Shown one piece after another: positions 18,239 to 40,542 of a stretch of 64,000 nucleotides of DNA. The DNA lies in assembly GCA_013141495.1 (NCBI GenBank), contig JABFQV010000011.1, positions 1-64,000 on the forward strand, read 5' to 3'. A model generated the notes under the pieces. It did not search any database. It was given only the letters and a program-made list of their open reading frames with translations, and had not been told where the DNA came from. The first letter of the stretch is position 1. The number at the start of each line of letters is the position of its first letter. Position numbers and translations under genes: made by a program. This stretch comes from Methylotenera sp. (GTDB lineage Bacteria; Pseudomonadota; Gammaproteobacteria; Burkholderiales; Methylophilaceae).

Positions 18239-19843
18239 CTAGAGTGACTTTCTTAAACTTGCTGGCGCAATATTGAGTGACTCTCGATATTTTGCAATAG
18301 TGCGGCGTGCCACCACGATGCCTTGCTTGCTTAATAAAGCTGTAATTTGATTATCTGAATACGGCTTTTTAGGATTTTCCTGCTCGACCAATTGCTTAAT
18401 CAGGGCACGTATCGCCGTGGCCGAACAAGTGCCGCCACTATCGGTGGCGACAGAACTGCCAAAAAAATATTTAAGCTCGAACAAACCGCGCGGAGTAAGC
18501 ATATACTTACTGGTTGTCACCCGCGAAATGGTAGATTCATGCAAATCCAGCTCATCTGCAATTTCGCGCAGCACCAATGGCCGCATGGCCACCTCGCCAT
18601 ATTCTAAAAAGTTTCGCTGGCGGTCAACAATGGCTTGCGACACACGCAAAATTGTTGAAAATCGCTGTTGAATGTTTTTAATCATCCATTTAGCTTCTTG
18701 CATCTGGCTTTGCAAATACTGGCTGGAACTATCGCGATTTCGCTTTAAAATACCCGCGTATAGCTGATTGATTTTAAGTTTAGGAATCACGCCGTCATTC
18801 AGACTGGCAATCCAAATGCCTTTAACCTTTTTAACAATCACTTCATGTTGAATATAATGCTCAGAACCTATTAAGGTAAACGCGCTACCTGGCCTTGGGT
18901 TTAAACTGGTAATCAACTGCTGCACTTGCTTGAGTGTCGCCTCATCACATCCCAACTCTTTACGTAGCTTTGCAAAATCGCGCGCACCGAGCGCTGGCAA
19001 ATAGTGCTTAGCTACTAATTGCGCCAAAGCTAAATGCGGTGTTTCTGCCGGCAGTGCCTGCAGCTGCAATAGCAAGCACTCACTTAAGTTACGCGCACCG
19101 ACCCCTAACGGATCTAAATGCTGCACGTGATGCAAGGCGGTTTGTAACTCTAGCGCATCAATTTCAAGCTCCAGTGGCATTTGCTCGGCGAGCGATTCGA
19201 GCGACGCTTCTAAATAGCCGTCTTCATTGATGCTATCCACCAGCAACATGGTGAGGGATTGATCGCGCGCTGATAACGGCATCAGCTTTAACTGTGATAG
19301 CAAGTGTTCACGCAAGCTGATTTGCAATGTTTCTTGTGGCTTATAATCGCTATCATCATCAGCTGGCGAAGTATTTTCATCCCAGCGACTACCGTTTGAA
19401 AACTCGTCAAATTCATCATTGAATTCAGCTGAAAATGTATCGGGAAACTCCGTACTTGCTTCAAACTCTGGAGCCTCATTAGGCTGGCTTGACTCTAGCG
19501 GGTTTGAAGCAGATATCGCTGACTCAGCTGCGTTGAATTCAAATTCAGCGGTTGGAGCGTCAAGATCAGCAGCATGGTCCTCTTGCTTGTTGCGATTATC
19601 TTGTGTCGCATCTACTGCACTAGTATCTGCAGCTAATGAGTCGCTCTCGCTAGCACTTTCTGTCGGATTGCCATATTCATCCTCATTGTCATCGCCTCTT
19701 TCCAGCAACGGATTCGTTTGCATGAGTACATCAATTTCTTGATTTAACTCTAATGTTGAAAGCTGCAATAAACGTATCGCCTGCTGCAGCTGTGGCGTCA
19801 GCGATAAATTTTGCGAAAATCTAAGTTGTAGCCCTTGCTTCAT
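18239..19843 (-). CDS. rpoN: RNA polymerase sigma-54 factor
   Basis: [29 protein letters not shown] and RpoN box [13 protein letters not shown]. Confidence 0.97.
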
Positions 19844-32891: not shown

Positions 32892-34358
32892 GTGGATGAA
32901 AATCTAGCCAAGCGCTTTCGCTTTTGCACGACATTACCTAGCATTCCTGCGGTTGCGATCAAAGTAATGGAACTCGCCAATGACCCATATACGGATATGA
33001 TTCAGATTTGCAATCAAATCGCCTATGATCCTGCACTCTCCATTAAAATAATTAAAGCGGCTAACTCTCCTTTATATAAATCACGCCGCGCGCCAGATAA
33101 CGTTCGCCAAGCTGTCAGCATGTTAGGTACCCATGCGGCAATTATGATTGCATTATCATTTTCATTAACAAGCTCGTTGATGAAACATGTTGGCAATAAC
33201 GGTGCCAATAGCAATGCTTTTTGGCGCCGTACTATTTTATCTGCGCTCGCCAGCCGCGCACTTGGTGAGAAACTGGGTTACAAAACACCTGATGATTTAT
33301 TTTTAGCCGCCTTATTGCAGGATATTGGCATTCTTGCTTTTGACGCGATGATGCCAGAAGAGTATGCCCCTGTTTTTACTGCCGCCACCAGCCATGATGC
33401 ACTATTGCAAGCAGAGAGAGCCACTTTTGGTGCCGGACATGATGAAGTAGGTTATGCGTTGCTTAAGCGCTGGGGTCTGCCGGATTATATTACAGTCGCA
33501 TGCCTTGCCAGCCATGGTAAACCGGGGCCCAACGATTCTGAATCCATTATCACTGGCTGTGTTGCTGCATCGGGCTATATTGCCGACTGTTTTTTGAACC
33601 CAAAAGCTGAAGGTGCTGTTGCCGCTGCGGCTAATGCGGCTGAAAATTGGCTGGGGCTAGACAGTGCCGCATTAACAGAAATCATCGAGATTATAAAAAT
33701 AGGCCTACATCCGGTAGAAGAGCTATTTGAAATCAGCATCATTCATCCTTCTGAGCTCAATGGTATTATCGCTGAGGCCAAAGAGTTACTAGAGATGCAT
33801 ACGTTTATCAAGATGCGTGACCTCGAAGAAGAATCCCAACGTGATGCGCTCACCGGCGCCTATAATCGTGGTTATTTTGATAACGCATTGCAACGCGAGT
33901 TTGATTTATCAAACAGGCAGGGTCTGCCATTCACGGTAGCGATGATTGATATTGACCACTTCAAGCAAGTCAATGATAAATATGGTCACCCAGCTGGAGA
34001 CGCCATTTTGGTTGCCGTAGTGCGCGAGATTTTTGGGCAGATTCGCCAAGATGACATCTTTGCGCGCTATGGCGGTGAGGAGTTCGCCGTTATTTTACCG
34101 GGTACATCACTGCTGTCCTCAGCCAAATTATTAGTGCGGCTTAAAGATAGCGTCGCTAACATTGCTCACGAACATGAAGATGGTAGCATTATCAAAGTCA
34201 CGGTATCGATCGGCGTAGTTTCTAATATGGATGGCGGCCAACGCTTTGAGCATCACGCTGATTTAATACGTGCAGCTGACCAAGCGTTATACGCGGCCAA
34301 ATATGCGGGTAGAAACCAAATTGTGGTGTGGAATAAATCGCTACCCTCGGTTTATTAG
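32892..34358 (+). CDS. HDOD domain plus GGDEF diguanylate cyclase
   Basis: HDOD-like N-terminus; RDALTGAYNRGYF and YGGEEFAVILPG; GTG start. Confidence 0.88.
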   Translation: MDENLAKRFRFCTTLPSIPAVAIKVMELANDPYTDMIQICNQIAYDPALSIKIIKAANSPLYKSRRAPDNVRQAVSMLGTHAAIMIALSFSLTSSLMKHVGNNGANSNAFWRRTILSALASRALGEKLGYKTPDDLFLAALLQDIGILAFDAMMPEEYAPVFTAATSHDALLQAERATFGAGHDEVGYALLKRWGLPDYITVACLASHGKPGPNDSESIITGCVAASGYIADCFLNPKAEGAVAAAANAAENWLGLDSAALTEIIEIIKIGLHPVEELFEISIIHPSELNGIIAEAKELLEMHTFIKMRDLEEESQRDALTGAYNRGYFDNALQREFDLSNRQGLPFTVAMIDIDHFKQVNDKYGHPAGDAILVAVVREIFGQIRQDDIFARYGGEEFAVILPGTSLLSSAKLLVRLKDSVANIAHEHEDGSIIKVTVSIGVVSNMDGGQRFEHHADLIRAADQALYAAKYAGRNQIVVWNKSLPSVY

Positions 34359-34990
34359 ACCGATTTAGCCTCTGCAAGCAATGATTTTACGCCTTCGGTA
34401 TTGAGCCGCTCGGCATTACTTCCATCCGCCGAGCGTTTAGTTGCAACTCTAATATCATCAACTTCAAACACGCTCAGCTTAATTAAACCAGCAACGGTCT
34501 CCAGTGTAAAAACAGGCACTGTTTTTCGAAAATCGCCTTTTTTATCACGCTTGCCGTCATTCAAAACGCGATAAGATTTTTCATTCACATCAAACGGAAT
34601 TTTCTGATTAAGCAAAAACATTTCCACGTCTTTGATGCTATCTGCAAATAGATGAATATGCGTCTCGGAAAGTAGCCCCGCAGTGCCATCTAACACCGAT
34701 CCAGTTAAATGTGGATTGAACCTGTCTAGCAGCTGCATGGTAAACAGCGCATTTTTACGTAATTCACGTAAATTTTCTGGTTGCTCGTCACTTAAAAAAA
34801 GCGAGCTGTACAGTTTGAGCTCGTGTTCAATCTCTGCATTTGAGGGCAATACGCTGTTATCAATGGCACCAAGTTGGCGCCCAGCTTTCTTTTTAGCATA
34901 GGCAAAGTCAGAAATACCGTCTTCAGCCATCATGCGGGCGGCTTGTTGTGCGACCAGTTGCCGCAAGTGCTGTAAGTTTTCTTTTGACAT
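34355..34990 (-). CDS. Conserved hypothetical protein, possibly nucleotidyltransferase-like
   Basis: ETHIHLFADSIKDVEMFLLNQKIPFDV; start moved to MSKENLQ (34990). Family assignment is inference. Confidence 0.7.
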   Translation of the reverse strand: MSKENLQHLRQLVAQQAARMMAEDGISDFAYAKKKAGRQLGAIDNSVLPSNAEIEHELKLYSSLFLSDEQPENLRELRKNALFTMQLLDRFNPHLTGSVLDGTAGLLSETHIHLFADSIKDVEMFLLNQKIPFDVNEKSYRVLNDGKRDKKGDFRKTVPVFTLETVAGLIKLSVFEVDDIRVATKRSADGSNAERLNTEGVKSLLAEAKSV

Positions 34991-35183
34991 TTTTTGTGAA
35001 TAAAGAAGAAATAGGGTAACGAAGCGCCTGATGCCCACCATCCGAGATAAATGCACAACATTAGAAAATTAAACGCGCCTAATAATGGAATGGACGCCCA
35101 CGTCCTAAAACGGCATCAAAGTGCCAAAGTAACGGTTCTATAAACCACTTAATTAGAAAGAGGCGTCCAAATCCGAGTTTAAG

Positions 35184-36509
35184 CTAACCCTTAATTTTAA
35201 TATCTAACTGTTTTAATTTTCGATATAAATGCGTACGCTCCAAGCCCGCTATTTCAGCTAACTTACTCATATTGCCCGTTACATTTTTAATGTGATAAGC
35301 AAAATAACGTCGCTCAAAATCGTCACGCGCCTCTCGTAACGGCTGATTATAATGCGTAAGCCCTTCTGCATTCGTATCCGTCGTACTTGAAATTTCAACG
35401 CTTTGTACCTTAGGGTCCGCCTGCGTCGCATCGTCAAACTGATGCAACACTCTCTTGACGTCTTCTAATGTGATTTTTTCACCCAAGCTGGTTTGAATCA
35501 AGTTGCGGACCACTGCATCCAACTGCGCTAAATCTCCAGGCCAGCTTGCATTGCGCAATGCATTTAATGCCGCAATATCAAACTCTCGATAAGGGATATC
35601 TGCCAGCTCAAATTGCAAGTTGGCAATGGCAATGGCCAACTCTGGAATGTCTTCTTTATGCTCTTCCAGCGCTGGTACACGTAATGAAACCGCCGACAAA
35701 ATTTGTAATAGATTATGGTCAAATAAGCCTTCAGCCTGTAATTTAGGTAGGTTTTGGCTAGTGCCGCACACTACGCGCACATTGTATTTATCTGCCTTTG
35801 TAATCAACAACAGTAAGCCTTTTTGCTCAGTCTTATTGAGCTCAGCTATTTCTGCAATATAGACCACACCCTCTCGACCCTGCTCTAAAATATCCAAGGG
35901 TGCGTTAACTAATTTACCTAACTCAGTGAGTTGCAGCCATGGTGTATCAGCGTTATGCAAAAAGCGTGCGCATAACTCAGCACCACCGCCTTTGGGGCCG
36001 ATAAATAATACCGGGCTGGGGCTATCGTTTGCGCTGGTGGCTATTTTATCTAAACGCTCTTTTAACACTAATATGATTGGGCTTTTGCCCAAGTTAGCCA
36101 AGCTCATTTCAGATTTTGGTAGCTGCTCACTATGCTTTAATGCAGCGGCCACCGTTTTTAATAGTTTTTGTAGCGCGATTGGTTTTTCTAAAAAATCAAA
36201 GGCACCAATACGCGTTGCCTCAACCGCAGTATCAATCGTGCCATGGCCCGACATCATCACTACCGGCATGGTCAGTAGGCCGGCATTGGCCCACTCTTTC
36301 AGTAAGCTAATGCCATCACAATCGGGCATCCAGATATCGAGCAACACCACGTCTGGGCGCTCCTGCAAACGTAATGCACGGGCAGCGGCAGCATTCTCAG
36401 CTAAATCAACACGATAGCCTTCATCATGCAAAATGTCGCTTAATAATTCGCGTATGCCTATTTCATCGTCAACGACTAATATATGTTTTGATGCCATGCT
36501 GTTTTTCAA
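35184..36509 (-). CDS. ntrX: NtrX-like response regulator with degenerate AAA+ domain
   Basis: Receiver domain (ILVVDDEIGIRELL, DIWMPD), AAA+-like middle, Fis-type HTH (LAEIAGLERTHLYRKLKQLDI); adjacent to ntrY. Confidence 0.88.
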   Translation of the reverse strand: MKNSMASKHILVVDDEIGIRELLSDILHDEGYRVDLAENAAAARALRLQERPDVVLLDIWMPDCDGISLLKEWANAGLLTMPVVMMSGHGTIDTAVEATRIGAFDFLEKPIALQKLLKTVAAALKHSEQLPKSEMSLANLGKSPIILVLKERLDKIATSANDSPSPVLFIGPKGGGAELCARFLHNADTPWLQLTELGKLVNAPLDILEQGREGVVYIAEIAELNKTEQKGLLLLITKADKYNVRVVCGTSQNLPKLQAEGLFDHNLLQILSAVSLRVPALEEHKEDIPELAIAIANLQFELADIPYREFDIAALNALRNASWPGDLAQLDAVVRNLIQTSLGEKITLEDVKRVLHQFDDATQADPKVQSVEISSTTDTNAEGLTHYNQPLREARDDFERRYFAYHIKNVTGNMSKLAEIAGLERTHLYRKLKQLDIKIKG

Positions 36510-36537: not shown

Positions 36538-38694
36538 TCAACTTAACAGTGGAATGCTAATGGTTACAATTGCACCGGTTTCATTGGCATCGCTTGTTGT
36601 TGCCAATGAAACAGGCGATGCATTTTCAATTTTAATACTGCCTTTATGTTCTTCAATTATTTTTTTTACAATCGCCAAACCTAGCCCGGTGCCATGAGGT
36701 TTCGTGGTCATGTAAGGTTCAAAAATATGCGACATCATGTCGGCAGAAAAACCAGTACCATTATCTTGCACGGTTAGCACCATTAAGTGATCCACTAGTG
36801 CGGTTTTTACAACAATCACGGGAGATAATGCTGTTGCAAGCGCATCTTGTGCATTTTGCAGCAAGTTATGCAGTACTTGGCGCAACATGGTGCCATCTCC
36901 TCTAATCGTACAAGCTTGCGTTGCCAGTGACAATTCTATTTTAATTTTTGGCAAATCATAAAGTGACACCACCTCACGAATCAAGGCGTTTAAATCCAGT
37001 TTATCTAAATGCGGTGCTGGCGAACGCGCATACTCACTAAATTCGTTCACCATTTTCTTTAAGGCATCAACTTGATTCACAATGGTGGCCGTTGAACGTT
37101 TTAACATTTCAGCATCGGCCACATCTAATTTACTAACCAATTTATGCGCCATGCGCTCTGCCGATAATTGTATCGGTGTGAGCGGATTTTTGATTTCATG
37201 CGCCAAACGCCTTGCCACCTCTCCCCACGCGGCGTCACGTTGCGCCTGCACCATGGCAGTCGCATCGTCAAATACGGCGACATAACCGCCATCCGGAAGA
37301 CGGGTGCCACGCAATGTAATAATTTGCTTACCTTGCGCAGTCGCTAATTCAATTTGCGTTTGCGCATCGTCTTTTTGCCCATTCTTAACACTCGCATCTT
37401 GCTGGCTATTGATGGCAATCGCTTCAAAAAAGTTAGCCAACTGCGCCTGCTTAGCGATAATTTTATCCGGCGTAAAACCCACGTACCCTTCTAACGAAAC
37501 GCCCAGTATATTCACTGTGGCTTCATTAAAAGTACGCAACTCCCCGCGCTCGTTTAATGCCAACACACCGGAAGACAAATGCGCCAAGATGGTTTCTAAA
37601 TAACCACGTGCCGCCTCAACCCGCGCACGGTTTCTATCTGCCGCTTTGGTCGCATCGCCTAATTGCTGTGTCATGCTATTAAAAGACTGCACCAACACGC
37701 CTAGCTCATCTTTACCATGTGCCGGCAACATGGTGCTGTAATCACCACTGGCAATCGCTTTAGTACCTTCAGCTAATACCGTTAGCGGCGCAGATAACCT
37801 GCGACTTAACACAAAAGCAATCGCCACCGCTGTTAGCATCGCCAACATCATCACTAAAGTTAGCGTGAGCGCGAACACCTCCCTTAAGGCGGTACGACTG
37901 TATGATAACTGCTGGTACTCTTGATACACATCTTGCACCGCCTCTGCAGTGGTTGCCAAAGACTTAGGCACTGGTTGCAATAACTGTAAAATTCGCGTTT
38001 CACCTGCAATAGCCTGCACACTGATGGGCGCTAATACGCGCAAAAACAATCCCTTGCCCGCAATTGGCTCAATGTTGCCGTAAATGCGCAAACGCGCTTG
38101 CCTTAACTGCGTCACGCTGGGTAGCTCCGGCAAAAAGCTCGTAGAATCACTGCTGGAAACCGCTAAAATTCTACCTTGTGGCGTCAGCAAGGTTACGTCT
38201 TGAATACCGCTTTTTTCACGTAAATCATTCAACATGGAAAAGTGCGTATCTGCCGGCTGAAAGGCGAGGCTAGTAGCCATGCTTTCACCTTTTTCTTTTA
38301 CATCCGCCAGCATAATATCTAAAGCGGTTCGGCCCAGATTTAACCCGCCTTCAAGTGCCGACTCCACTTTGACGTTAAACCATGACTCAATTGAGCGCGT
38401 TAAGAAATTTACCGAGACCACGTAAACGATTAAACCCGGAATAAATGCCATCAGCGCGAATGAGCCTAACAGACGTAGCGTAAAACGGCTACCCATGACG
38501 CGCTCGCGGATATTGCGATATAAATTAAAAAGCTGAACCGCAATCAGCGTAATCAGCAATACCGCTAATGTGATGTTTAATGCGACTAACAGCGTGTAAT
38601 ACTCACCTGATGCCGCAGTACTTGCGCTCGCATTTGATAGCAAATACAGCAACAACGTGCCTAGCACAGCACTGGCGAGTACGATGTATTTCAT
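36538..38694 (-). CDS. ntrY: Nitrogen regulation sensor kinase NtrY
   Basis: HAMP, PAS, LAHEIKNPLTPIQLSAERM, DNGTGFSADMMSHIFEPYMTTKPHGTGLGLAIVKKI. Confidence 0.93.
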   Translation of the reverse strand: MKYIVLASAVLGTLLLYLLSNASASTAASGEYYTLLVALNITLAVLLITLIAVQLFNLYRNIRERVMGSRFTLRLLGSFALMAFIPGLIVYVVSVNFLTRSIESWFNVKVESALEGGLNLGRTALDIMLADVKEKGESMATSLAFQPADTHFSMLNDLREKSGIQDVTLLTPQGRILAVSSSDSTSFLPELPSVTQLRQARLRIYGNIEPIAGKGLFLRVLAPISVQAIAGETRILQLLQPVPKSLATTAEAVQDVYQEYQQLSYSRTALREVFALTLTLVMMLAMLTAVAIAFVLSRRLSAPLTVLAEGTKAIASGDYSTMLPAHGKDELGVLVQSFNSMTQQLGDATKAADRNRARVEAARGYLETILAHLSSGVLALNERGELRTFNEATVNILGVSLEGYVGFTPDKIIAKQAQLANFFEAIAINSQQDASVKNGQKDDAQTQIELATAQGKQIITLRGTRLPDGGYVAVFDDATAMVQAQRDAAWGEVARRLAHEIKNPLTPIQLSAERMAHKLVSKLDVADAEMLKRSTATIVNQVDALKKMVNEFSEYARSPAPHLDKLDLNALIREVVSLYDLPKIKIELSLATQACTIRGDGTMLRQVLHNLLQNAQDALATALSPVIVVKTALVDHLMVLTVQDNGTGFSADMMSHIFEPYMTTKPHGTGLGLAIVKKIIEEHKGSIKIENASPVSLATTSDANETGAIVTISIPLLS

Positions 38695-39275
38695 TTAAAC
38701 AAGTTGGGTGACCATGCAAAACGCTGCGAAGTCATTTCCCAATCCTCAGCACCCATCGCCTCTGCCTGCAAAGCTTTGGGTAGTTTTTTATGGTCTAGGC
38801 GCATCAACAATAGCGCCTGGTAGCGTTCGCCCTTATCGACGTGTGCTTTTTGAAATACTTTTAAATCCTGGATAACTGATAAATCCTCGATGGCCTCATC
38901 CAGACTCGCGTAACTTCTTTGTTGCTCATTGCGAGCAATAATATATTGTCGCGTCAGCGCATGATAACTCAAGCTCACCTCCTGCACTGTGGTGACAATC
39001 TCATCATCAAACCAGTACTGGCGAGGCGAGCGCAATTGAAACTCTATCAAAAAATTAAAAGTAAATCCTTTAAGAATCGCTTTTTCCATCTCTGGGCTAA
39101 AATTGATTTCAGCGTCCGCATTCAGTAAATAGTCATCTTCATACACAATTAAATTGGCGCTTCTAATATGCAGGCTATTGCCAGCCGCAAACGACAAATG
39201 CGCAAATAACACCAAACCTACAATGCTAAATAGCTGTTTAATTCTTTTGCAATAGCGCATAAAAAAAGCCGTCAT
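38691..39275 (-). CDS. DUF4390-like secreted protein
   Basis: Signal peptide then NADAEINFSPEMEKAILKGFTFNFLIEFQLRSPRQYWFDDEI; between rsmB and ntrY. Exact start uncertain (39275 or 39260). Confidence 0.8.
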   Translation of the reverse strand: MTAFFMRYCKRIKQLFSIVGLVLFAHLSFAAGNSLHIRSANLIVYEDDYLLNADAEINFSPEMEKAILKGFTFNFLIEFQLRSPRQYWFDDEIVTTVQEVSLSYHALTRQYIIARNEQQRSYASLDEAIEDLSVIQDLKVFQKAHVDKGERYQALLLMRLDHKKLPKALQAEAMGAEDWEMTSQRFAWSPNLFK

Positions 39276-40542
39276 GTGCGTTTGATGGAATAAGCTGACC
39301 ATTGATATGCGTGATATTTGCCTGTGGATTGTTAAGTGCGGTATCCAAAGGCAACTGGCTAGCATCTGTATGATTTTTTAAAAACTGATCAATCTGCCTT
39401 TGGTTTTCTTCATCAAAAACAGAACACGTTACATAAAGCAATTGCCCACCTTGTGCCAACATCTGCCATAAATTTGGTAATATTTTAGCCTGTTGTGCGA
39501 CAAAAGAAGCCACATCCGACTCTCGGCGTAACCATTTAATATCTACATGGCGCCGCACAATGCCAGATGCAGTACACGGCACATCAGCCAAAATTCTATC
39601 GAATGGTTTGCCATCATACCAGTCAGTGGCTGCGGCATCTCCCACCAACAGCGCGGCTTTTAAATTCAACCGATCAAGATTACTTTGCACCCGTTGCAAA
39701 CGGGTTTCATCGCTATCCAAAGCGGTCATCTGTACCTCGGCCAACTCCAGAATATGCCCAGTTTTTCCACCGGGTGCGCAACAGGCATCTAACACGCGCA
39801 TATCAGCTTGCACATCTAACAACTGCGCTGCCAACTGCGCACCATAATCTTGCACAGAAACCACACCATCGGTAAAGCCTGGAATTTTATCAACGGCAAT
39901 CGGTTTTTTAAGCTCCACGGCTTGCGCACCAAGGTGGCTAGCCTCAAATTCCTGACGCGCTAATAATTGCAAATAGTCATGTACACTGATTTTTTTGGTA
40001 TTTACACGAAGTGTCATCGGCGGATGCTGGTTACCAATCGCCAAGATGTTTTGCCAGTGCTCAGAATATTGGGTTTTGAGCTTGTTTATCCACCACTGCG
40101 GATAAGAATAAGTCGCCACTTCATTGGTTTTAGATTGCACATTCAGCACTTCTTTTTGCCGTAAAAAATTACGCAAAATTGCATTCACCAAGCCCTTGGC
40201 CCAACTTTTTGCCATTGGCCTTTTAAGCTGGCTAACCGCGTGCACCGCCTGATTGACCACGGTAAATGCATCCGCTTTGTCATGCAGCAACTGATAAATC
40301 GCCACTAATAACACGGCGTGAAGACGCTCATCGGTGAGCGGTTTTTCTAGCAACTGTTTTAAATAGGTATCAATCTCGCCATAAAAGCGCAAAGTGCCAT
40401 AGCTCAAATCTGCGGCAGCCCCTTTTTGTTGTGGCGTAGCCGCTGGAAATAACGACAATGCAGCAGGCAAAGCTAAGGTAAGGTTGCGACCTGAAAACAC
40501 TTGATGCACAGCATCAGCGGCGATAAGTTGAGAAATATACAA
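39238..40542 (-). CDS. rsmB: 16S rRNA m5C967 methyltransferase
   Basis: NusB-like N-terminus; LDACCAPGGKTGHILEL; DVPCTASGIVRRH; TCSVFDEEN. Confidence 0.94.
   Translation of the reverse strand: MYISQLIAADAVHQVFSGRNLTLALPAALSLFPAATPQQKGAAADLSYGTLRFYGEIDTYLKQLLEKPLTDERLHAVLLVAIYQLLHDKADAFTVVNQAVHAVSQLKRPMAKSWAKGLVNAILRNFLRQKEVLNVQSKTNEVATYSYPQWWINKLKTQYSEHWQNILAIGNQHPPMTLRVNTKKISVHDYLQLLARQEFEASHLGAQAVELKKPIAVDKIPGFTDGVVSVQDYGAQLAAQLLDVQADMRVLDACCAPGGKTGHILELAEVQMTALDSDETRLQRVQSNLDRLNLKAALLVGDAAATDWYDGKPFDRILADVPCTASGIVRRHVDIKWLRRESDVASFVAQQAKILPNLWQMLAQGGQLLYVTCSVFDEENQRQIDQFLKNHTDASQLPLDTALNNPQANITHINGQLIPSNAHDGFFYALLQKN

Follow-up and report, generated by a model that had tools for sequence, protein, structure and literature searches.

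The ntrX gene described here lies in a window of 64,000 nucleotides, which is the whole stretch of DNA that was analysed, and encodes a response regulator with a receiver domain, an AAA+ core and lid, and a Fis-type HTH (Table 1). It is located directly downstream of ntrY in a cluster with the order rsmB, DUF4390 gene, ntrY and ntrX, all in one direction. This order is kept in nearly all of the approximately 80 named relatives with enough flanking sequence, which belong mostly to Methylotenera, Methylophilus and Methylobacillus, followed by other beta-proteobacteria. The sensor kinase NtrY keeps its H, N and G boxes (HEIKN, HNLLQNAQDAL, DNGTGF and GTGLGL), as an earlier reading of the sequence alone had noted. 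The 233-aa gene downstream of ntrX matched no family in Pfam or NCBIfam, and homologues beside ntrX were confined to a few close Methylotenera relatives (L012, L013, L014, L015, L017 and L029).

The ORF given in the sequence-only reading (35184-36509) is right and is on the minus strand. It reaches upstream to a TTG at 36509, and the start is likely to be the ATG at 36497 rather than this TTG. The best match of the protein among all NCBIfam models is NtrX, at 262 bits; the equivalog cut-off of 600 bits, which is a threshold for name assignment and no biological feature, is not reached, and the model probably stands for NtrX with an intact AAA+ domain. Pfam recognizes Response_reg (7e-29), the short Sigma54_activ_2 (PF14532, 7e-43) and AAA_lid_14, and the full-length Sigma54_activat model (PF00158) hits the protein in pieces only. 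HTH_8 scores 20.3 bits, slightly below its cut-off of 22 bits; 37 of the 39 members match HTH_8, and the C-terminal HTH aligns with the C-terminus of Brucella NtrX. The receiver and the HTH had been read as intact, and the orthologue alignment agrees: the phosphorylation residues of the receiver are invariant in all states of the AAA+ domain, and the HTH residues are invariant among orthologues.

Table 1. Features of the ntrX locus and of the NtrX protein in the window
Feature	Coordinates	Strand	Remarks
ntrX (plrR-like) response regulator gene	35184..36497	minus	437 aa from ATG at 36497
Receiver domain of NtrX	36150..36482	minus	D13, D14, phospho-acceptor D57, S86, K108 (440-aa numbering from 36506)
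Catalytically dead AAA+ core (PF14532 Sigma54_activ_2)	35667..36092	minus	Pfam, motif alignment, AlphaFold2 fold
Degenerate Walker A GPKGGGAE	35976..35999	minus	Ala in place of Lys
Degenerate Walker B EGVVYIAEIAEL	35838..35873	minus	Asp replaced by Ala; Glu kept
Former arginine-finger region FDHNLLQIL	35697..35723	minus	First Arg replaced by Asp; Asp conserved in order
Sensor II position WPGDLAQL	35520..35543	minus	Arg lost
AAA lid domain (AAA_lid_14) of NtrX	35424..35663	minus	Pfam, AlphaFold2 model
Fis-type HTH (HTH_8) of NtrX	35205..35321	minus	LERTHLYRKLKQL invariant among orthologues
233-aa gene downstream of ntrX	34355..35056	minus	
ntrY (plrS-like) sensor kinase	36538..38694	minus	HAMP, PAS, HisKA, HATPase
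plrP-like DUF4390 gene	38691..39365	minus	Overlaps ntrY by 4 bp
rsmB-like 16S rRNA methyltransferase gene	39238..40542	minus	First in conserved cluster; named by comparison with published cluster
rpoN (sigma54) gene	18248..18721	minus	Same 64-kb window as ntrX

Catalytic motifs of the AAA+ domain

Five canonical sigma54 activators from the window's own genome were used as the motif reference. Where these activators read GESGTGKE, GAFTGA, GGTLFLDEIGD, FREDLYYRL and WPGNVRQL, NtrX reads GPKGGGAE, no GAFTGA loop at all, EGVVYIAEIAE, FDHNLLQIL and WPGDLAQL, respectively. The sequence-only reading had claimed that the catalytic Lys of Walker A and the Asp of Walker B are lost, that GAFTGA is missing from a shortened inter-Walker segment, and that the FREDLYYRL region is altered. 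These claims were borne out: the Walker A coordinates are exact, the spacing between the two Walker motifs is 34 residues compared with 57 in the five activators, and the first arginine finger is gone. The loss of the sensor II Arg, as judged from the alignment, adds to that list. Among the features of bEBPs, NtrX thus lacks the Walker A Lys, the Walker B Asp, GAFTGA, the first arginine finger and the sensor II Arg. Loss of sigma54 from the genome as the cause of this state was considered and rejected, as rpoN lies in the same window and the genome holds seven complete and intact sigma54 activator domains; the cell therefore still uses sigma54 elsewhere.

Sequence leaves room for residual nucleotide binding despite the missing Lys. 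It has been reported for R. capsulatus NtrC that ATP binding without hydrolysis sets the oligomeric state, and the AAA+ domain of NtrX could work in the same way. In favour of this, NtrX retains part of the glycine-rich loop and the Walker B Glu, binding of ATP but not its hydrolysis is required by Rhodobacter NtrC (as cited in PMC10274813), and crystals of Brucella NtrX have been obtained with ATP and ADP. However, the Lys that contacts the beta and gamma phosphates is missing in nearly the whole order, the sensor II Arg and the first arginine-finger Arg are lost too, and Brucella NtrX, unlike the protein studied here, keeps its Lys (GPSGAGKE). We regard ATP binding of this kind as rather improbable.

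Distribution, constraint and deletion of the domain

The sequence-only reading had proposed checking whether the Walker losses are lineage-wide, and they proved to be common to nearly all beta-proteobacterial relatives examined. Lys was never found at the Walker A position among the NtrX proteins of the approximately 80 named relatives, which is far beyond chance. For wider sampling, the DUF4390 gene was used as an anchor and the adjoining NtrX was taken from 120 genomes, approximately one per family; 117 of them yielded an NtrX-like ORF (49 in the window's order and 68 in other orders of the class). In the window's order, 36 of the 49 NtrX carry a dead AAA+ domain and 13 carry none. The domain-less proteins are roughly 210-270 aa long, and L171 is domain-less too despite its longer ORF. 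The Lys position is occupied by another residue in 35 of the 36 proteins with the domain (A 13, F 9, V 6, T 3, and others). The remaining one, L189 from another family of the order, has the P-loop Lys (GEPGVGKS) and has lost the Walker B Asp, the arginine finger and sensor II; its Lys is either chance or a retained ancestral residue. The dead AAA+ domain is thus no quirk of the window's genome, but the standard state in its order.

The 68 genomes from other orders have K (56), R (10), I (1) or Q (1) at the P-loop position; R occupies the first arginine-finger position in 56 of them and the sensor II position in 53, and GAFTGA was found in none of the 68. Two sister NtrX outside the order, L203 and L215, have I and Q in place of the Walker A Lys, apparently an independent start of the same decay. 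The ten proteins with Arg for Lys occur at dispersed positions in the tree, and N, K, E, S or Q often stands in place of the Walker B Asp (both among L201-L271); in these orders, too, ATPase function may therefore be weak or have been lost repeatedly.

Where it is kept, the dead domain is clearly under strong purifying selection, approximately two to three times looser than that on the receiver. Median dN/dS over 21 pairs is 0.022 for the receiver, 0.057 for the dead core, 0.038 for the lid, 0.013 for the HTH and 0.24 for the disordered linker before the HTH, values that are rough because synonymous sites have reached saturation in several pairs and some branches are common to more than one pair. 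Such constraint means that the domain is not inert where kept. Structure prediction, which had also been proposed earlier, gave a confident fold for the dead core: in the AlphaFold2 model (39 sequences), most of the core has a pLDDT of 78-94, and the linker that precedes the HTH has one of 28-32. Compared with other orders, C179, W190, G230 and an Asp at 263 (the arginine-finger position) are newly conserved in the window's order, which hints that the domain has been remodelled and is not freely decaying. The many lost catalytic motifs could also be those of a pseudogene or an assembly error, but full-length ORFs with 54-93% identity are present in approximately 80 named genomes, dN/dS is far below 1 in every folded domain, and the receiver and HTH residues are invariant. 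On the dN/dS values and the full-length orthologues this explanation was rejected, and we give it a negligible chance.

NtrY, a separate protein, provided the trees on which the deletions were mapped. The window's order forms one clade on these trees, with support of 99 (one long-branch outsider joins) and 100, and the domain-less NtrX sit in three places. For example, the domain-less L184 is sister to a row with the dead domain, with support of 99/97. The third event (L175) stands on weaker branches, and the placement of the long branches L171 and L169 inside the largest deleted group is uncertain, which leaves the other two events unaffected. A single deletion for all short NtrX was rejected: holding all 13 together makes lnL 83 worse, with an AU p-value of 0.0017. 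Formally, this p-value holds for a group named beforehand, whereas the 13-member group was named after the first tree. The AAA+ domain has therefore been deleted independently at least three times, with the receiver and HTH left in the same operon, so at least some lineages can do without it. The distributions suggest a series in which GAFTGA was lost first, then the catalytic site at the base of the order, and then the whole domain.

The best solved structural matches of the model are Brucella NtrX 5m7n/o/p, with a low whole-chain TM-score (0.45) because the domain orientations differ. VpsR and FleQ also appear among the structural neighbours. Since c-di-GMP binds VpsR and FleQ, it can be asked whether the dead domain is a sensor, in which a small ligand or nucleotide gates the HTH. 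The strong constraint, the beta-specific conservation of C179, W190 and D263 and the presence of these two neighbours are in line with a sensor, but relatives that have the same operon function in the absence of the domain, a state reached at least three times, and both ordinary activators and Brucella NtrX are ranked above VpsR and FleQ. We consider a sensor unlikely.

Proposed working and known systems

We consider it very likely that NtrX is a DNA-binding regulator that is controlled by phosphorylation, acts independently of sigma54 and contains a pseudo-ATPase as a scaffold. D57 of NtrX would be phosphorylated by NtrY, which the periplasmic DUF4390 protein probably modulates. The phosphorylated receiver would change how the Fis-type HTH dimerises or is oriented, and the HTH would regulate ordinary (non-sigma54) promoters. 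The central AAA+ domain would neither hydrolyse ATP nor contact sigma54; it would remain between the receiver and the HTH as a folded pseudo-ATPase, in the role of a spacer or of a scaffold for the dimer, with a scaffold most likely. The sequence-only reading had similarly concluded that NtrX has lost ATPase function and acts as a plain phospho-regulated DNA-binding protein. The loss of each catalytic element that was checked, the conservation of this loss across the lineage, the independent deletions and the intact receiver and HTH support this, while "plain" needs amending, as the AAA+ domain is still a strongly constrained fold and not mere dead weight.

In favour of a pseudo-ATPase, the Lys position holds A, F, V, T and others across the window's order, compared with K or R in other orders; L189, the one orthologue of the order with a P-loop Lys, counts against it. 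The strong constraint and the beta-specific C179, W190, D263 and G230 count against a mere scaffold, and together they imply that the domain has some function, which may be to bind a ligand or partner. It is conceivable, though we find it doubtful, that the AAA+ domain lost its activity at the root of the beta lineage, was then re-used as a constrained non-catalytic regulatory domain with a new ligand or partner to bind, and was later discarded by several descendants; the Asp in place of the arginine finger, the new Cys and the new Trp are the features cited for such re-use.

The pseudo-ATPase scaffold that we favour is of an already known kind, since a dead example is in the PDB, a Pfam family exists for the short domain, and the literature holds a general statement on beta-proteobacterial NtrX. 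The dead example, 3co5, is the second-best solved relative of the AAA+ core by sequence, and we take it to be the AAA domain of a Neisseria gonorrhoeae response regulator; its database title is "putative two-component system transcriptional response regulator". Like that of NtrX, its domain is short and PF14532-like; the P-loop is dead (GEAGSPFE in 3co5) and the Walker B Asp is missing (GGVLYVGDIAQ in 3co5). Unlike NtrX, it is an isolated 143-residue fragment from a different genus, and the similarity is restricted to the core.

Beta-proteobacterial NtrX have been said to "lack the AAA+ domain" (PMC13001219, citing Bonato 2016), and a review speaks of "four different classes" of NtrX with a reference that concerns MisR/MisS. 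Beyond that general statement, we found no description of a Walker-dead NtrX in the open literature, nor of an order-wide dead but constrained domain with multiple complete deletions, although earlier descriptions of either are possible. The statement should be corrected in that most sampled families keep a folded, constrained and catalytically dead domain. It follows for annotation that such ntrX genes are not to be labelled sigma54 activators. The graded series, from an intact P-loop without GAFTGA through a dead domain to its deletion at least three times in one operon, is a natural experiment in the change from an ATP-driven sigma54 activator to an ordinary response regulator.

Another close known system is PlrSR of Bordetella, with which the window shares the cluster rsmB-plrP-plrS-plrR, including the 4-bp overlap of plrP and plrS, and the combination of a phospho-controlled receiver with a DNA-binding regulator (PMC13001219). 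Genetics in Bordetella indicates that PlrP restrains the phosphatase activity of PlrS and that PlrR in its phosphorylated form is essential (PMC13001219). The published description gives PlrR a receiver and a DNA-binding domain only, whereas NtrX in the window retains the dead AAA+ domain, and plrR is followed by trkAH instead of the 233-aa gene. The alpha-proteobacterial NtrX of Brucella abortus (PDB 5m7n/o/p), the best full-length structural match, has the same receiver-AAA-HTH architecture, but its Walker A and B are intact (GPSGAGKE and DEVAD). Caulobacter and Rhodobacter NtrC and Vibrio VpsR, as unconventional bEBPs, share with NtrX the absence of the sigma54-contact loop (GAFTGA) and are reported to regulate sigma70 promoters (PMC10274813). 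However, the Walker A and B residues are still required in Caulobacter NtrC, whereas the Walker Lys and Asp of NtrX in the window are gone.
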